In this document: piece by piece, positions 1,092 to 6,464 of the stretch
Layout: each line of letters begins with the position of its first letter
Position numbering within the stretch: position 1 is the stretch's first letter
Assembly (NCBI GenBank): GCA_016935955.1
Contig: JAFGPY010000248.1
Location: 1 to 6,842 of the forward strand
Origin: Planctomycetota bacterium
GTDB taxonomy: Bacteria; Planctomycetota; Phycisphaerae; FEN-1346; JAACEH01
DNA length: 6,842 nt
Reading direction: 5' to 3'
Position numbers and translations under genes: made by a program
Notes under the pieces: generated by a model
What the model saw: the letters and a program-made list of their open reading frames with translations, nothing else
The model's database searches: none
Told to the model about the DNA's origin: nothing

Positions 1092-1166
1092 CACAAGCCC
1101 CCGGCATCGCCGGGGGATCGAACGGGTGTGAACCCTCGTATCCCGCCGCAGTGCGGCGGGCTTGTG
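1092..1166 (+). repeat. Cloverleaf palindromic repeat, copy 1
   Basis: This 75-nt element folds into a four-way junction. The outer stem is CACAAG (1092-1097) with CTTGTG (1161-1166). Arm 1 is CCCCCGGC (1098-1105), loop ATC, GCCGGGGG (1109-1116). The centre arm is CGA..GGGT (1119-1127) with ACCC TCG (1132-1138). Arm 3 is CCCGCCGC (1142-1149), loop AGT, GCGGCGGG (1153-1160). Arms 1 and 3 abut the outer stem with no spare bases. It lies between the GH3 promoter candidate and the 1211-1347 repeat. Its centre arm differs in sequence from copies 2 and 3 but still pairs. It resembles REP-type elements; it is not a tRNA, since no anticodon or T-arm sequence fits. A run of nine G follows at 1170-1178. 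Confidence 0.85.
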
Positions 1167-1210
1167 CGAGGGGGGGGGCTATGTAGGATTTCGCATGAAG
1201 AGGGCCCGGG

Positions 1211-1347
1211 GGGTGCCATGCTTCTGCTTGTCGTAGACCCCGAGCGAAGCCGAGAGGCAGAAGCATGCCGCCAAGCCAGTTGCGCGCGAGCACGCGTCTA
1301 CCCTTCGACAGGCTCAGGACCTGACGGCAAGTAGACGCGTGGCACCC
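1211..1347. repeat. Composite palindrome: outer stem enclosing two hairpins with related 29-nt loops
   Basis: An outer stem, GGGTGC (1211-1216) with GCACCC (1342-1347), encloses two hairpins. Hairpin A has perfect 11-bp arms CATGCTTCTGC (1217-1227) and GCAGAAGCATG (1257-1267). Hairpin B has perfect 11-bp arms CACGCGTCTAC (1291-1301) and its complement (1331-1341). Both loops are exactly 29 nt. The reverse complement of loop A and loop B share the start C..TCG and the end CGxCAA, and loop B holds CTTCGACAGGCTCAGGAC. The arms are unrelated to each other. With the cloverleaf and the 95-bp repeat it fills the 942-1450 gap, where I see no gene. Confidence 0.75.
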
Positions 1348-1439
1348 TCGCAGCCTTTCGCGGGCACGGCCTCTCGACTTCGCTCCCTTCGGCGAGTTCA
1401 GGACCGGCGGGACAGGCAGGCCGTGCCCCCACGGGCTTG
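1345..1439. repeat. 95-bp direct repeat, copy 1, with 11-bp inverted arms
   Basis: This stretch is repeated at 1913-2007 with two differences (G1350/A1918 and C1430/T1998). Inside it, GGGCACGGCCT (1362-1372) pairs with AGGCCGTGCCC (1418-1428) around a 45-nt insert that contains CTCGACTTCGCTC and TTCAGGAC words related to the 1228-1330 loops. It begins 12 nt beyond the stop codon of the minus-strand gene at 1451-1795, so it would lie in that transcript's 3' end and could act as a stabiliser or terminator. No T-run follows the stem on the minus strand. Confidence 0.85.
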
Positions 1440-1450
1440 ACGCCTCCGGT

Positions 1451-1795
1451 TCAGAGCCAGGCCCGCTTCTGCCGCGGGTCGAGGCCGTCGCGGTCGTCCT
1501 CGTCCACCAGGCGGTTCTCGGTCCAGCGATTGCCCAGTATCCAATCGGTGCGGCAATGACCGTCGTGCAGCCGGCCCAGGGCATCATGGTAGACGACGTG
1601 AAAGAGCATTGATCCGTTGGGAGTGAAAAAAAAGCCCCGGCCGAACGGCGCCCACGCGATGCGGATCATGCGGCCGCCCAGGCCGACGATCTCCCGCTCG
1701 ACGCGCCGACGCCCCATGTTCATCGACAGGGCGAACATGCCGATGGCCAGGGAAAGGATGGTAACTGCCACCAGGGCAATGAGTACGGGTTCCAT
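1451..1795 (-). CDS. Small single-helix membrane protein of unknown function (114 aa)
   Basis: I do not recognise the family. Residues 4-27 (from PVLIALVAVTILSL to ALSMNM) form one strong transmembrane helix. It is followed at once by GRRRVER, so by the positive-inside rule the C-terminal part should face the cytoplasm. Residues 35-114 form a small soluble region rich in aromatic and glycine residues (AWAPFGRGFFF, then FHVVYHDALGRLHDGH), ending in a charged tail (VDEDDRDGLDPRQKRAWL). The start at 1795 is chosen because GAGGGA lies 6 nt upstream and the helix begins directly after it. The frame is open up to 1882, but that extension only translates repeat hairpins. The gene stands alone: its 3' end meets the 95-bp repeat and its 5' side another hairpin cluster. 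Confidence 0.7.
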   Translation of the reverse strand: MEPVLIALVAVTILSLAIGMFALSMNMGRRRVEREIVGLGGRMIRIAWAPFGRGFFFTPNGSMLFHVVYHDALGRLHDGHCRTDWILGNRWTENRLVDEDDRDGLDPRQKRAWL

Positions 1796-1830
1796 GCGTA
1801 GTCCCTCGGCACGTAAGGTAGCCGCTTGCA

Positions 1831-1915
1831 GGGTCACACCTTGACCCGAAGGGCAAGGTGTGCGGTCGCCGACATGTCGCACACTTTGGGGCTGCGCCCT
1901 CCAAAGTGTGAACCC
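1831..1915. repeat. Composite palindrome: CACACCTTG hairpin followed by CACACTTTGG hairpin
   Basis: Hairpin 1 is CACACCTTG (1835-1843), an inner CCC-GAA-GGG tip, and CAAGGTGTG (1854-1862). Hairpin 2 is CACACTTTGG (1880-1889), an inner GGC-TGC-GCC tip, and CCAAAGTGTG (1901-1910). A short outer stem GGGT (1831-1834) with ACCC (1912-1915) encloses both. The same two arm words recur in reverse order, with different tips, at 3086-3171. The cluster lies just upstream of the start codon at 1795 and runs straight into the second 95-bp repeat. Confidence 0.75.
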
Positions 1916-2007
1916 TCACAGCCTTTCGCGGGCACGGCCTCTCGACTTCGCTCCCTTCGGCGAGTTCAGGACCGGCGGGACAGGCAGGCCGTGCCCCTAC
2001 GGGCTTG
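1913..2007. repeat. 95-bp direct repeat, copy 2
   Basis: This copy matches 1345-1439 at 93 of 95 positions. Arms GGGCACGGCCT (1930-1940) and AGGCCGTGCCC (1986-1996) flank the same 45-nt insert. It lies 29 nt past the stop codon of the minus-strand gene at 2036-2926, the same relative place as copy 1 has to its own gene. The near identity implies recent duplication or gene conversion. Confidence 0.85.
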
Positions 2008-2035
2008 GCATCCTCGCGGCGGCCAGGGACATCTG

Positions 2036-2926
2036 TCACCGCCGCAACGGCCGCGCGAGCTGGGGCGACTCGATGAGGCCGAACGTCGACACGCCGCCCT
2101 GCTGCCGCATCTCGCTCATGCCGAACAGATACGCCCTGGACCGTACGTCGCGACCGCTGCTGAGGTTCGTCATCTGCTCCTCGGTCAGCACCGTCCTGAG
2201 CCCTTCGAAGTACTGGTCGTCGAGTTCCTGGACGACCTCTCTCTGCCCGTTGCCGATGATGGCACTGATCTGGTCGCGGGCTTCGGCTTCGGCCTGCTGG
2301 TCGCCGGCGGCCTGGGCGGCGCGGACGGCCTCGAACGCGATGTTCATCCGCGCCCGCAGGTCTTCGACCTTGGCGTCGTACAGCGGCCGGTACTCGTTCG
2401 TGTAGGCGTCCACGAGTTGCCGCTGCTCGTCGGTCAACTCAAGTCGCTCCAGCCGCCGGGCCGTCGGGATGACCATCGGCCGCACGGGCTCGACCTTCAG
2501 TTCCGCCTCCTGCCCCTCGCCGAGGCGAATGGTCAACGACGTGCGGCCCTCGTCCGTCTGCGTCACGACCATGCTGGTGATCTGGCCCTCGCCCTGCGTC
2601 GCGGCGATCTGCGGCTCGTTGGCGGCCTCATTGTTCGGTGTCCCGTTTCCACCGTCGGAGGACGCGATGTCGTCCTCTGTCCGCTCCGGATAGGACGGCA
2701 GTTCAGCATCCACCGATGGCCACCGACCTCGGTTCTCGGCGGAGTACGTCTTGATTGCCTGACCCAGATCTCTGAGACTTGCTGCACAATTGGCCCTCGC
2801 TCTGGCCTTCCGGGCATCGGCAACATAGCTTCGCACCACCACGGCGACAATCCCGACCACGGCGATGCCCACGGCCAGAATGGCCACCAGCAGCACGACC
2901 CACGTCGACCTGGATTTCCGGTTCAT
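2036..2926 (-). CDS. Membrane-anchored protein: pseudopilin-like N-terminus and LTxxQ-like helical C-terminus (296 aa)
   Basis: Residues 9-32 form a strong N-terminal membrane helix after a short basic stretch (NRKSRS). Residues 39-70 (RKARARANCAASLRDLGQ...YSAENRGRWP) match the segment that follows the helix in planctomycete type II pseudopilin-like proteins (R-N-L-LG-A-Y-N-G-WP pattern). The prepilin peptidase site (GFTLIE-like) is missing, so processing as a pilin is doubtful. Residues 80-115 are an acidic, Asn/Gln-rich linker. Residues 116-150 look like beta strands. Residues 160-260 are charged helices that begin with LTDEQ (164-168) and end with LTEEQM (247-252), like the LTxxQ repeats of Spy/CpxP-type periplasmic proteins. 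A periplasmic, envelope-linked role is inferred. AAGGTG 7 nt before the ATG supports the start. It has no close operon partner. Confidence 0.85.
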   Translation of the reverse strand: MNRKSRSTWVVLLVAILAVGIAVVGIVAVVVRSYVADARKARARANCAASLRDLGQAIKTYSAENRGRWPSVDAELPSYPERTEDDIASSDGGNGTPNNEAANEPQIAATQGEGQITSMVVTQTDEGRTSLTIRLGEGQEAELKVEPVRPMVIPTARRLERLELTDEQRQLVDAYTNEYRPLYDAKVEDLRARMNIAFEAVRAAQAAGDQQAEAEARDQISAIIGNGQREVVQELDDQYFEGLRTVLTEEQMTNLSSGRDVRSRAYLFGMSEMRQQGGVSTFGLIESPQLARPLRR

Positions 2927-2951
2927 GGTCCTTCACCTTTCCTGAACGTCT

Positions 2952-2957
2952 ATTGTA
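2952..2957 (-). promoter_or_regulatory. Possible -10 element for the 2036-2926 gene
   Basis: Read on the minus strand, TACAAT matches the -10 consensus TATAAT at five of six positions and lies 25 nt upstream of the start codon at 2926, in a locally AT-richer patch. No good -35 hexamer is seen 16-18 nt further upstream, so this is a weak call. Confidence 0.25.
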
Positions 2958-3060
2958 CGACAAGGGGACCGCCGGACGCGAGGGCTTTTGGAGCGGGTCA
3001 ACATGCGAGGGAACAGTTGCTTCTCGATGTGGGCCAGCCCCGGCAGGGGCGTCTGGTGGC

Positions 3061-3207
3061 TAAGAATCTGTTTCACAGCGGGGTTCACACTTTGGAGGCC
3101 CGACGAAGTCGGGACCAAAGTGTGCGTGTCGCAGGGCACACCTTGGCGTCCCCTGCGGGGCCGCTCCAAGGCACCCACGAGTCAGGGGTTATGAAACAGC
3201 TCCTAAT
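3061..3207. repeat. Composite palindrome with CTGTTTCA/TGAAACAG outer arms and two inner hairpins
   Basis: The outer stem is CTGTTTCA (3068-3075) with TGAAACAG (3192-3199), with patchy pairing continuing outward. Inner hairpin 1 is CACACTTTGG (3086-3095), a CCCGAC-GAA-GTCGGG tip (3099-3113), and CCAAAGTGTG (3115-3124). Inner hairpin 2 is CCTTGG (3141-3146), a CCCC-TGC-GGGG tip, and CCAAGG (3166-3171). The outer 3' arm ACAGCTCCTAA resembles ACAGAACCTAG of the 6279-6438 element. No gene is credible between 2927 and 3394; the rest of that gap (2958-3060 and 3208-3278) shows nothing further that I can name. Confidence 0.7.
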
Positions 3208-3278
3208 GATCAATCGCCGCATACGCGACTCGGAATCCGTGCCTCTGCCGCTCCGCCGCAGTTTTTTCGGGCAACAGG

Positions 3279-3307
3279 TTGCAAGTCCCCGGTTTCGCCG
3301 GTAGCAT
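3279..3307 (+). promoter_or_regulatory. Candidate promoter for the Gfo/Idh gene
   Basis: TTGCAA (3279-3284) and TAGCAT (3302-3307) are separated by exactly 17 nt, each matching four of six consensus positions, about 87 nt upstream of the start codon at 3395. This is the best -35/-10 pair I found in this spacer, but it is only a moderate match. Confidence 0.27.
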
Positions 3308-3394
3308 CGGGCGTTTGCAGGCACGCGATCCGGACGGTCCGTTGCCCGGTGTCGGGGGGCGGCCGTTCGGCGATTCTGCCAGGAGACATCTGCC

Positions 3395-4255
3395 ATGAAA
3401 CTCGGTTACGTCGGTCTCGACAGTTCGCACGCCGATCAGCTCACCCGCATGGTTAACGTGGAGCCCCCGGCCGGACTTCCCGAAGCCCGGTTCACGCACA
3501 TCTGGGGCCGCGACGCGGAGCGGGCCAAGGTCGTCCAGGAGAAGGGCCAGGTCCGGACCGTCTGCGCCACGATCGAGGAGATGATCGGCCAGGTGGACGG
3601 CGTGGTCGTCGGAGCCCGCGCGGGCGAGCGGCACCTTGCCGAAGCGCGGCCGCTGATCGAAGCCGGCCTGCCGATCTTCGTCGACAAGCCGCTGACGAAC
3701 ACGCTGGCCGACGCCCAGGCCCTGCTGGACCTGGCCGAGAAACACAAGGTGCGTCTGAGCAGCTTCTCGGGGCTGCGCGTCGTGCCGGAGGTCGTCGAGT
3801 TCAAGAAGAAGTATGCCGCGATCGACGCCGAGAAATACGGCGGCGCGATCAACGGGCACGGCGACGACACGAATCCGTACGGCGGCTGGTACTTCTACGC
3901 CGTGCACTCGATTGAGCTGCTGCTGGAGGTCTGGGGGCTGCAGAGCGGCGAACTGCTGGCGGCCGAACTCAACAACCAGTTGCACGTTCGCTGCGCCCTG
4001 GACGACGGGCAGATCGTGACGATTCAGCTCAGTGCGAAGTTTCCGCCGTTCAGCCTGATCGGCTTTATCGACCACAACACGTTCGCGACCGTTGTGCCGC
4101 TGGGCGGCATGCAGGAACAGGTCACGCGGCGCATCGTGGGTTTCTTTCACGGAGACGCGGGACTGACGCGCCGTGAGTTGCTGGCGCCCCTGGCGGTCAT
4201 GGAGGCGATCCGCCAAAGCCTCAAGACGCACAAGGCGGCAAGCTACGAGGTCTGA
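3395..4255 (+). CDS. Gfo/Idh/MocA-family oxidoreductase, short form (286 aa)
   Basis: This is a predicted NAD(P)-dependent dehydrogenase of the sugar/inositol oxidoreductase family, cytoplasmic. The N-terminal half is a Rossmann fold, but the usual GxGxxG is replaced by GYVGLDSSH (residues 4-12), the pattern of a GLDxSH subgroup. FVDKPL (95-100) is the family's E/DKP motif, whose Lys normally acts at the active site. Residues 163-179 (GGWYFYAVHSIELLLEV) place His171 where the catalytic His of the family usually sits. At 286 residues it is shorter than the usual 330-390, the loss falling in the C-terminal beta-sheet domain. AGGAG 9 nt before the ATG fixes the start. The substrate cannot be told from sequence. 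The gene is followed after 11 nt by a cloverleaf repeat, so read-through to the next gene is uncertain. Confidence 0.88.
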   Translation: MKLGYVGLDSSHADQLTRMVNVEPPAGLPEARFTHIWGRDAERAKVVQEKGQVRTVCATIEEMIGQVDGVVVGARAGERHLAEARPLIEAGLPIFVDKPLTNTLADAQALLDLAEKHKVRLSSFSGLRVVPEVVEFKKKYAAIDAEKYGGAINGHGDDTNPYGGWYFYAVHSIELLLEVWGLQSGELLAAELNNQLHVRCALDDGQIVTIQLSAKFPPFSLIGFIDHNTFATVVPLGGMQEQVTRRIVGFFHGDAGLTRRELLAPLAVMEAIRQSLKTHKAASYEV

Positions 4256-4266
4256 CGGCCGGATGA

Positions 4267-4339
4267 ACAAGCCCCCGGCACCGCCGGGGGATCGAATGGT
4301 TGCAGACGTTCGTATCCCGCCGCATTGCGGCGGGCTTGT
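4267..4339 (+). repeat. Cloverleaf palindromic repeat, copy 2
   Basis: Same orientation and same fold as copy 1. The outer stem is ACAAG (4267-4271) with CTTGT (4335-4339). Arm 1 is CCCCCGGC, loop ACC, GCCGGGGG (4272-4290). The centre arm CGAATG (4293-4298) pairs with CGTTCG (4307-4312) through one G-T wobble, around loop GTTGCAGA. Arm 3 is CCCGCCGC, loop ATT, GCGGCGGG (4316-4334). It starts 11 nt after the Gfo/Idh stop codon, where it could end or protect the transcript. Confidence 0.88.
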
Positions 4340-4359
4340 GCGAGCATGTGGAATGTAGG

Positions 4360-4444
4360 GTGGGTTCGTGCGGACCCACGCGGCAACGTAGGGGCACGGC
4401 CTGCCGTGCCCGTCGTGTGTGCGTCGGACGCCTTACCCCGACGC
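4360..4444. repeat. Run of three short hairpins after cloverleaf copy 2
   Basis: Three adjacent inverted repeats are visible: GTGGGT (4360-4365) with ACCCAC (4374-4379); GGGCACGGC (4392-4400) with GCCGTGCCC (4403-4411), loop CT; and GCGTCGG (4421-4427) with CCGACGC (4438-4444). The middle one has the arms of the 95-bp repeat but lacks the 45-nt insert. The first shares CCGCGTGGGTCCG (reverse complement) with the hairpin at 6207-6225. No gene is credible between 4256 and 4657. Confidence 0.65.
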
Positions 4445-4504
4445 AGAAGCCGGTGACGAACCATGAGACCGACCGCAGTCCCCAAATCCATTCGCCGTCC
4501 TCGC

Positions 4505-4536
4505 GGCCGCACGAGCGGACCGTGGGGCGTGCGGCC
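4505..4536. repeat. 9-bp perfect inverted repeat in the leader of the MttB-family gene
   Basis: GGCCGCACG (4505-4513) and CGTGCGGCC (4528-4536) are perfect complements around a 14-nt loop, about 120 nt upstream of the start codon at 4658. It could be an operator or a leader hairpin. I saw no cobalamin riboswitch features in this leader. Confidence 0.4.
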
Positions 4537-4657
4537 CAAGGTGGCCGTCGTCTTGTAGCCGACCTGCCGACGTGTCTGTTCCGTGACGCGGCCGGCCGCC
4601 GAGGCGCCCGCGCCGACCCATTGCGACACTCAGGCAACCTACGGGGAGGCTCATCCC

Positions 4658-6064
4658 ATGTTTCAACTCGTACTCCGCGACATCGAACAGATCGATCGCA
4701 CCAGCATCCGCATTCTGAGCGAACTCGGCGTCCGCGTGGACGACGCCGCGTTGCGCGAGCAGGCCGTCCGGGCCGGCGCCCGCCCCGGACGCGACGCCGA
4801 CCGCATCCGCATGAGCGAAGAGATGGTCCGCCAACTCGTGGCCCTGGCTCCGCACGAAGCCCGCTACGCCGACCTGGCCGGCAACGTGACGACGGTGGGC
4901 CTCGGCGCGCGGCCCACGTTCTGGACCGGGGCAGCGCTCAACTACGTGACCGGCCGCCAGTCCCGAGCCATCACGGCCGCGGACCTGGCCGAGTTCTGTC
5001 GCGTGGCCGACACGATCGACCCGCTGCTGGCCGTGGTCGGCACGAGCATCGAAGACGTGCCGCCCGAGTGCCGCGACTTCGTGGGCTTCCGCATCATGGC
5101 CGAGAACACGTCGAAGCACCTGCGGCCGCTGCTGTTCACGGCCCAGGGTGTCGCGCCGATCCTGGAGATGGCCCAGGTGCTGGCCGACGGCAAGCCGCTG
5201 AAGGACCGTCCGCTGGTCTCGTTCGGCTACTCGTGCCTCTGCCCGCTGCACTGGTCGCAGATTTCGATCGACCTGTGGCGAGCCACGGCCGGACACAACA
5301 TCCCCGTGATGCTCAACGGCGAACCGATCGCCGGGGCCAGCAGTCCCGTGACCCTGGCCGGCGCCCTGGCCCTGGCCAACGCCGAGATCCTGGCCGGCGT
5401 GGTGCTGACGCAGTTGCTCGAGCCCGGTCGCCCGGTGATCCACAACCTGGGCTTCGCCCACGTGACCGACATGCGCAGCGGCACCTGCCTGTCGGGCACG
5501 GCCGAGTGCGGCATGCTGGCCTGGGCGGGCGCCCGCCTGGCCGCCTTCTACCGGTTGCCCTCGGCCTCGTGGATGTGCACCGATTCGTTCATCGACGACG
5601 AGCAGGCGGCTCAGGAAAAGATGCTCACGGCCTTCGCCCACGTCTCGGGCGGAGTCAACATCATCTGGGGCATGGGCCAACTGGAGAGCGAGAAGACCCT
5701 CTCGCCCGTGCAACTCGTGATGGACGAAGAGGTGGCCCGCGCCGCCCTGCGCTGGTGGGACGGGTTCAAGGTCGACGACGACGCGCTGGCCTACGACGTC
5801 ATCCGCGACCACGTGGAGAAGGGCGAGGACTTCCTCGGCCACGAGCACACCTTCACGCACTTCCGCAGCGAACTGAGCCTGTCGCCGCTGATGGCCCGCA
5901 GCAGCCGCGGCACGTGGGAACAGAAGGGAGCCACGAGCCTGGCCGAGCGTGCCGCCGCGAAGGTCCGCGACATTGTGGCGTCCGATCCGCCGCAGCACTT
6001 GTCGGACCAGCAGCGCAAGGACCTCCGGGCCATCGAGCAGCGCGAACTGAAGCGCCGGGCGTAA
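4658..6064 (+). CDS. MttB-family (non-pyrrolysine) methylamine/betaine:corrinoid methyltransferase (468 aa)
   Basis: This belongs to the trimethylamine methyltransferase (MttB) superfamily, TIM-barrel enzymes that move a methyl group from a quaternary or tertiary amine to a cognate corrinoid protein in the cytoplasm. Family landmarks are RILSELGVRVDD near the N-terminus, GASSPVTLAGALALANAEIL (residues 226-245), LLEPGRPVIH (253-262), the DSFIDDEQAAQEK stretch (309-321), GGVNIIWGMGQLES (331-344) and a C-terminal HTFTHFRSELS. Its length is normal. No in-frame TAG occurs, so it is not a pyrrolysine trimethylamine enzyme; its nearest characterised relatives are the glycine betaine (MtgB), carnitine and proline betaine enzymes. 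The substrate is unknown. GGGGAGG about 8 nt before 4658 fixes the start; the frame is open back to 4583 without a ribosome site. No corrinoid protein, MtgA-type partner or transporter lies in the window. Confidence 0.9.
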   Translation: MFQLVLRDIEQIDRTSIRILSELGVRVDDAALREQAVRAGARPGRDADRIRMSEEMVRQLVALAPHEARYADLAGNVTTVGLGARPTFWTGAALNYVTGRQSRAITAADLAEFCRVADTIDPLLAVVGTSIEDVPPECRDFVGFRIMAENTSKHLRPLLFTAQGVAPILEMAQVLADGKPLKDRPLVSFGYSCLCPLHWSQISIDLWRATAGHNIPVMLNGEPIAGASSPVTLAGALALANAEILAGVVLTQLLEPGRPVIHNLGFAHVTDMRSGTCLSGTAECGMLAWAGARLAAFYRLPSASWMCTDSFIDDEQAAQEKMLTAFAHVSGGVNIIWGMGQLESEKTLSPVQLVMDEEVARAALRWWDGFKVDDDALAYDVIRDHVEKGEDFLGHEHTFTHFRSELSLSPLMARSSRGTWEQKGATSLAERAAAKVRDIVASDPPQHLSDQQRKDLRAIEQRELKRRA

Positions 6065-6109
6065 GAAGCCGTGTCGGGTGGCCGAGGGACGCCGGTCAGG
6101 CGCCACTCA

Positions 6110-6182
6110 ACAAGCCCCCAGCGCCGCTGGGGGATCGAACGGTTGCAGACGTTCGTATCCCGCCGCAATGCGGCGGGCTTGT
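6110..6182 (+). repeat. Cloverleaf palindromic repeat, copy 3
   Basis: Same orientation and fold as copies 1 and 2. The outer stem is ACAAG (6110-6114) with CTTGT (6178-6182). Arm 1 is CCCCCAGC, loop GCC, GCTGGGGG (6115-6133). The centre arm CGAACG (6136-6141) pairs perfectly with CGTTCG (6150-6155) around GTTGCAGA. Arm 3 is CCCGCCGC, loop AAT, GCGGCGGG (6159-6177). In arm 1 a G-C pair of the other copies has become A-T on both sides. It lies 45 nt after the MttB-family stop codon. Confidence 0.88.
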
Positions 6183-6206
6183 GCCCGTAGCGTCTTGACG
6201 TTCCGC

Positions 6207-6225
6207 GTGGGTCCGGTGGACCCAC
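6207..6225. repeat. Perfect 8-bp hairpin after cloverleaf copy 3
   Basis: GTGGGTCC (6207-6214), loop GGT, GGACCCAC (6218-6225). With its flank it shares CCGCGTGGGTCCG with the reverse complement of the hairpin that follows cloverleaf copy 2 at 4360-4379, so the two cloverleaf copies carry related followers. No T-run follows, so a classical terminator is not supported. Confidence 0.6.
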
Positions 6226-6278
6226 TACGTGCTGGGGGCACGTCACCAACCGTGGATGAAGGAAGGACCGACGGTATA

Positions 6279-6438
6279 CTAGGCTTTGTCTGAAAACGGC
6301 TTCGTGCCGTGGCACGGGCGTCCCGCCCGTGCGTCCCAGGGGCATCTTGCCCCTGGGCTTGGACCGCTTGCCACGGGCGTGACGCCCGTGGAACGCATGG
6401 GCAAGATGCCCATGCCACGGTCTTCAGACAGAACCTAG
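6279..6438. repeat. Large nested palindrome: 16-bp outer arms enclosing four triloop hairpins
   Basis: The outer arms CTAGGCTTTGTCTGAA (6279-6294) and TTCAGACAGAACCTAG (6423-6438) pair at 15 of 16 positions, counting one G-T wobble. A second stem is CCGTGGCA (6307-6314) with TGCCACGG (6413-6420). Inside are four hairpins with 3-nt loops: GCACGGGCG/CGCCCGTGC (6312-6332), CCCAGGGGCA/TGCCCCTGGG (6335-6357), CCACGGGCG/CGCCCGTGG (6371-6391) and GCATGGGCA/TGCCCATGC (6395-6415). The first and last hairpins share bases with the second stem, so they are alternatives to it. No protein is encoded. It ends 26 nt before the methyltransferase start codon and has the form of a MITE-like element. Confidence 0.85.
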
Positions 6439-6464
6439 TCTGAACTGATAGAAAGGATCCGGCG

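Follow-up and report, generated by a model that had tools for sequence, protein, structure and literature searches.

What kind of element is the 75-nt repeat that occurs three times on contig JAFGPY010000248.1 of a Planctomycetota bacterium (assembly GCA_016935955.1), and what lies behind its cloverleaf fold? The contig was analysed at its full length of 6,842 nt, here called the window, and the copies, the shuffles and the descriptor scans reported below all lie within it. An earlier note on this DNA had explained the fold by selection on a Holliday-like junction. We find that the repeat is real and that it is something more ordinary, i.e. an inverted pair of units of the repetitive extragenic palindromic (REP) type with a new head sequence. 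Our best explanation, held with slightly more confidence than doubt, treats each copy as a REP-like heterodimer and probably as a mobile but non-autonomous palindrome, which a transposase encoded elsewhere would move.

The three copies lie on the plus strand at 1092-1166, 4266-4340 and 6109-6183. Their equal length, common orientation, coordinates and loop triplets were verified on the sequence; the pairwise identities are 65, 63 and 70 of 75 positions, and a 76th letter (C) at the right end is common to the copies. The outer stem with three arms described in the earlier note was found in all three copies with both RNA and DNA parameters. In copy 1 the outer stem is formed by 1093-1097 and 1161-1165, and arm 1, the centre arm and arm 3 occupy 1098-1116, 1117-1141 and 1142-1160, respectively; the same arms are found at 4272-4290, 4291-4315 and 4316-4334 in copy 2, and at 6115-6133, 6134-6158 and 6159-6177 in copy 3. 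The fold z-scores on the plus strand are between -4.3 and -5.6. Twelve folds were evaluated (three copies, two strands and two parameter sets); one of them was equalled by 1 of 200 shuffles and the other eleven by 0 of 200. A cloverleaf descriptor with an outer stem of at least 6 and two flush hairpins, scanned on the plus strand with G-T pairs allowed, gave 27 rows at five places in the window, whereas 40 dinucleotide shuffles gave 0.8 rows on average and never more than 5. Coding DNA contains two of these places (837-896 and 4134-4202), which account for 3 of the 27 rows and look like chance.

The origin of this fold becomes apparent when the two halves of each copy are aligned. Each copy is an inverted pair of one unit of about 34 nt, ACAAG-(8-bp hairpin)-AT(A)CGAACG, which is composed of ACAAGCCC, thirteen bases, GGGAT, an extra A found in the right unit only, CGA and mostly ACG; 23 of 35 columns are invariant across the six half-units. 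The left units are located at 1092-1125, 4266-4299 and 6109-6142 on the plus strand, and the inverted right units at 1132-1166, 4306-4340 and 6149-6183 on the minus strand. Searched with two covariance models, R1 for the whole pair and R2 for the single unit, the window gives high scores for the three copies and for their six units. On the opposite strand R1 finds these places as well (58-64 bits), and its next-best matches in the window are other compound palindromes at about 20 bits. The arrangement is that of a REP dimer or a REPIN (REP doublet forming hairpins) in the broad sense, with two palindromic units, inverted and repeated in intergenic DNA, here as six half-units in three inverted pairs. 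An inverted hairpin pair with a common base must give a cloverleaf, flush arms and sliding, so that no special junction need be assumed. The earlier note overlooked the two inverted units as the source of the cloverleaf, an arrangement that is already known from REP dimers and REPINs.

The two arms are unlike, and for this reason a single long hairpin is costlier than the cloverleaf; the difference was 2.0-4.7 kcal/mol in favour of the cloverleaf in every one of six energy comparisons. The basal CCC/GGG is the same in both arms and pairs either within the arms or across them, i.e. in the outer and centre stems, and the junction can therefore slide by 3 bp. The slid and unslid forms differ by 0.6 kcal/mol with DNA parameters and by 2.7 kcal/mol with RNA parameters. 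The RNA optimum has arms 1 and 3 of 5 bp together with longer outer and centre stems, and in the DNA optimum the two basal A-T pairs of the centre arm are open.

It is conspicuous that the differences between the copies are concentrated outside the stems. When the first column is disregarded, 12 of the other 74 columns are variable, namely 5 of the 58 paired and 7 of the 16 unpaired ones (Fisher P 0.0027); when the outer stem and arms 1 and 3 are considered alone, the variable columns are 2 of 42 in the paired part and 3 of 6 in the loops (P 0.010). The stems of the left and right units differ at 2 of their 8 pairs, each of which is changed on both sides, and all 48 of 48 cells are paired. The percentage paired and the covariation score of this left-right comparison were reached by 1 of 500 shuffles and are above those of all slid structures. 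The left-right differences are common to the copies (two clusters of related rows) and thus amount to about two events. The changes on which the earlier note had relied are present in the sequence: in copy 3 one G-C pair of arm 1 is replaced by A-T on both sides, and the fold of copy 1 contains a centre arm rebuilt as GGGT/ACCC, where two original centre-arm pairs are broken. The former is the single two-sided change among the copies (columns 12/20), and this count was equalled by 164 of 500 shuffles. We therefore rejected covariation among the three copies alone as evidence. That pairing is kept has support from the split between stems and loops and from the comparison of left and right units; selection on a Holliday-like junction goes too far for three copies, because one compensatory pair is not above chance and because template-switch repair can also keep palindromes perfect.

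The last point leads to an explanation without any selection on the fold, according to which the repeats have spread, their pairing is kept by template-switch repair of quasi-palindromes, and two-sided changes are single mutational events. Quasi-palindrome correction is a known mechanism, and the occurrence of only one two-sided change among the copies fits it. However, the stems vary less than the loops, the centre arm of copy 1 has been rebuilt in another register, and the arms have stayed unlike, though correction between inverted units should tend to equalise them. We consider this explanation unlikely.

How does the pair compare with known REP systems? Di Nocera et al. 2013 (PMC3733652) distinguish the superfamilies GTAG and CGTC and report both types in Planctomycetes. 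According to the excerpts of that paper, CGTC units are predominantly head-to-head dimers and have no dedicated transposase, and dimer partners can fold each on their own or together into one large structure. Most families prefer heterodimers, which "has no obvious explanation" in the same excerpts, where protection from hairpin-cleaving enzymes is suggested. The window repeat has the head-to-head layout with heterodimeric arms. It resembles the CGTC heterodimers described there, and those of genomes G215 and G572 discussed below, in having two short inverted units with the heads outside and with unlike arms; complementary spacer ends, AT beside the arms and the four-way fold are also shared, a likeness that was reached with the window-derived covariance model. 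It differs from them in its head (ACAAG as against CGTC/TGTC), its inner tail (CGAACG as against CCACGAGT) and its shorter spacer, and its stem is without pairing A-T letters on both flanks. With REPINs and bacterial interspersed mosaic elements (BIMEs) it shares an inverted pair of REP-like units, constant length, intergenic position and compensatory changes; in the Pseudomonas REPINs, as far as the excerpts of Bertels and Rainey 2011 (PMC3116915) go, the inverted REP doublet is the replicative unit and compensatory changes are common. Unlike REPINs, the window repeat has no GTAG, and whereas REPINs are drawn as one long hairpin, the unlike arms of the window repeat favour a cloverleaf. Its perfect 8-bp palindromes with a 3-nt loop are similar to those of GTAG REPs that are accompanied by TnpA-REP, as in the S. 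maltophilia type (PMC8266576, in part). In the excerpts of PMC2873474, REP elements and cloverleaf shapes are mentioned only separately.

The layout was also found in alphaproteobacterial genomes. R1, applied in the genome searches with stricter filters that lose weak matches, gave matches in 1 of 150 genomes from the phylum to which genome G001 belongs (E at most 0.001) and in 2 of 289 genomes from the class of G001, an alphaproteobacterial sample (E at most 0.01, five places); these E-values are per genome, so 1e-3 across 289 genomes is weak alone, and it is the layout of the matches that counts. The places read CGTCAT or TGTCAT (AGTCAT in one), hairpin, ATCC..GGAT, hairpin, ATGAC, which is the four-way layout of the window repeat in other letters. 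In REP terms they are heterodimers of TGTC/CGTC-type units placed head to head, which PMC3733652 has already described. A centre pattern returned 82 rows, which after merging correspond to 26 pairs in G572 and 17 in G215; G001 and the backward-read control gave 0 each. In these 43 TGTC/CGTC-type inverted hairpin pairs (L046-L088) the arms are varied but self-paired: 42 of the 43 parse, and 574 of the 588 cells of their unit stems are paired, most stem positions showing several pair types. When a strict CGTC pattern was run with up to 2 mismatches allowed, G215 yielded no more than 2 places, of which one is a pair. The expectation that identical arms are avoided was partly borne out by the comparator pairs, as arms with at most 2 differences occur in 1 of 42 as compared to 7.8 at random (P 0.001, with a threshold chosen afterwards).

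Besides the weakness of the R1 E-values, several results weigh against reading the window repeat as a mobile REP-like heterodimer. There is no GTAG tag in the three copies; hairpins with GTAG at most 3 nt away and a stem of 6 or more were found only outside them. Nor do the units fit the definition of a CGTC REP, whose stem begins with A-T pairs and which is tagged by CGTC (or TGTC/CCTC), and 0 of the 8 CGTC hairpins of the window lie inside the copies. No transposase was found among the six window proteins scanned. The number of two-sided changed pairs between left and right units was reached by 401 of 500 shuffles, and that of pair types by 112 of 500. Among the comparator pairs the avoidance of fully identical arms is weak (0 of 42 as against 2.25 expected at random, P 0.09; 0 of 39 as against 2.05, P 0.11, without likely orthologues), the mean arm difference is not raised (5.24 as against 5.44 at random), and the unconstrained fold is better than the long hairpin in only 32 of 42 cases with RNA parameters and 34 of 42 with DNA parameters. 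Moreover, the TGTC/CGTC pairs do not track the Y1 enzyme, because G572 with its 26 pairs has no Y1 transposase match and G215 has one. Being without GTAG and CGTC tags, the units are therefore outside both named REP superfamilies, yet the head-to-head heterodimer layout of REPs is present. Judging from the sequence, we read the window repeat as a putative new, differently tagged family of REP heterodimers, neither GTAG nor CGTC.

Tagged hairpins are found near the copies as context and are not part of the repeat. The tag scan located GTAG-tagged hairpins at 4355-4379 (plus strand, 15 nt after copy 2), 4388-4411 (plus strand, the second after copy 2) and 6208-6228 (minus strand, downstream of copy 3). 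They adjoin copies 2 and 3, and none stands beside the repeat's own hairpins; 1 of 100 shuffles reaches three, and we count these neighbours in favour of the REP-like reading. CGTC-tagged hairpins number 8 in the window as compared to 3.85 in shuffles, 3 of 100 of which reach 8. In G215 a lone GTCAT-type hairpin (L089, position 1072) precedes the one Y1 transposase match of that genome by some 400 bases, provided that the match begins at base 1501, which the length of the locus suggests; we do not build on it.

If the copies are mobile REP-like heterodimers, the following course of events can be proposed. On a single strand the tails of the units pair as the centre arm and their heads as the outer stem, while the unit hairpins are arms 1 and 3; the resulting four-way junction can slide by 3 bp. 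A single-strand transposase of the HUH/Y1 type encoded elsewhere would recognise the folded unit, and it would copy or move the pair into intergenic gaps without target duplication, where it would be tolerated behind genes. Unequal arms would be kept so that no long perfect hairpin forms. In known systems the transposase cleaves single-stranded REP, and GTAG is needed to varying degrees (PMC8266576, as far as its excerpts go). Copies that have been inserted may in addition have a role at transcript 3' ends.

The main functional rival is a role in RNA at the ends of transcripts, which is compatible with a mobile palindrome. As an explanation of its own, it would make the repeat a transcribed structural element, i.e. 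an mRNA stabiliser, a processing site or an attenuator, with selection on the RNA fold. The positions of the copies are in its favour: according to the open reading frame (ORF) list all three lie in gaps between genes of the same direction, and copies 2 and 3 begin 11 and 45 nt after the stop codons at 4255 and 6064, as the earlier note had correctly placed them. The RNA folds are strong, and REPs are mostly downstream of genes and in many cases plausibly transcribed, as stated in the excerpts of PMC3733652. Against it, copy 1 is oriented opposite to its flanking genes, the fold is equally clear with DNA parameters, and the terminator scan found no sense-side T-tract at copies 2 and 3, copy 2 having only an antisense match on the minus strand (4290-4272). 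At copy 1 the scan gave a minus-strand match at 1102-1084, which is sense for the flanking genes and pairs the repeat edge with flanking DNA. No Rfam family reached its gathering score, which also counts against a transcribed element. We regard such an element as about as improbable as repair without selection. A curated Rfam RNA or a tRNA was rejected, since there was no family at gathering score and no ARAGORN call; the sole sub-threshold Rfam match touching a copy is Esr41 (E 0.41), with a 10-nt overlap with copy 1.

Two further explanations fare considerably worse. A miniature inverted-repeat transposable element (MITE) of the DDE type would account for inverted units at both ends, constant length and dispersal, but hairpin termini are unusual for DDE ends and no target-site duplication was seen by eye in the 20-nt flanks of the three copies, whose ends are not defined to the base; this we judge very unlikely. 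A dispersed, operator-like binding site for a chromosome or regulatory protein, for which the roles of REPs and BIMEs in genome structuring and gene regulation speak (PMC8266576, in part), is slightly less likely still, as no regulator was found by family match among the six window proteins scanned and a 75-nt four-way structure is presumably larger than an ordinary operator.

Further copies were sought in several collections, where exact-core searches miss variants and blanks hold only for the collections scanned. The strict repeat pattern was found at 2 places in genome contigs and 2 in viral contigs (one sequence twice); the surroundings are without arms, and R1 and R2 found nothing there at E below 0.1. 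Further patterns gave 0 matches in viral contigs, and a single-unit pattern gave 3 (L006, L007 and L008). The viral contig L007 has a stretch (1606-1632) that agrees with the left unit of copy 1 at 26 of 27 positions (R2 28.1 bits, E 7.9e-5); this stretch lies close to where a long open frame ends and has no inverted partner. We take it, without proof, as a chance find of a pattern that fixes 17 letters. L006 has E 0.073 with R2, and L008 no R2 match. Blast-type searches found no match in phages and one 21-base match in plasmids, and with flanked copy 2 no plasmid match. None of 61 relatives of G001 gave a match to the DNA of copy 2, and no second location of the pair came up when public collections were searched with exact cores. 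Aligning MttB relatives brought up no viral contig. We recognised no description of the 75-nt repeat in the literature among the matches listed.

As to the genes of the window, the ORF list and the family scan give a Gfo/Idh/MocA-type gene at 3395-4255, behind which copy 2 is located, and an MttB-type gene at 4658-6064 (start taken as 4658), followed by copy 3; both are on the plus strand, as is the 5' part of a methyltransferase from 6465. On the minus strand there are part of a family 3 glycoside hydrolase (3-941) and two ORFs without family match (1451-1882 and 2036-2926). Among the 120 matches listed for the MttB-type protein, the nearest relative with an organism label is 81% identical and belongs to an Anaerolineaceae-labelled metagenome-assembled genome (MAG); the next labelled ones are MAG proteins of Lentisphaeria (63%) and Kiritimatiellae/Kiritimatiellia (57-58%). 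Relatives of both the Gfo/Idh-type and the MttB-type gene (3395-6064) are found among the matches listed on contigs of matching sizes (7919, 11254, 6067, 5259, 108970 and 6878 bases), which suggests that the two form a kept gene pair. Inside the MttB-type gene, a match to the Rfam family PYLIS_3 (the pyrrolysine insertion sequence of mttB) at 5576-5675 is below threshold (24.5 bits as against 38, E 0.066).

The window contains other palindromes. A second compound palindrome is present in two inverted copies at 1830-1916 (plus) and 3079-3179 (minus), both of which fold as an outer stem plus arms; the outer stem is GGGT/ACCC, and the arms stand on CACACCTTG/CAAGGTGTG and CACACTTTGG/CCAAAGTGTG with unlike tips. 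A large palindrome at 6278-6439 has near-perfect terminal inverted repeats, CTAGG..TGTCTGAA and TTCAGACA..CCTAG, around several GC-rich hairpins, and has a sub-threshold Rfam match to mir-4504 (31 bits as against 104). A 96-nt direct repeat (1344-1439 and 1912-2007) is 98% identical and folds as a long hairpin.

What would these findings mean? A REP-type pair with a new head would, if our reading is true, extend a class that has been described mainly as the GTAG and CGTC superfamilies. A bolder generalisation, to which we give little credence, is that in paired palindromic repeats of unrelated lineages arms that are self-paired yet unlike would yield a slidable four-way junction on single-stranded DNA, and that this junction rather than a long hairpin would be recognised by the mobilising enzyme or would allow the repeat to survive hairpin nucleases. 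The survival half of this idea is already suggested in the excerpts of PMC3733652, and what is new is the proposal that the form recognised is the four-way junction. The most interesting lead is the link between unlike arms and the cloverleaf: setting a slidable four-way fold against a long hairpin makes the heterodimer preference noted in that source measurable, and the 42 parsed pairs of two genomes are a start.

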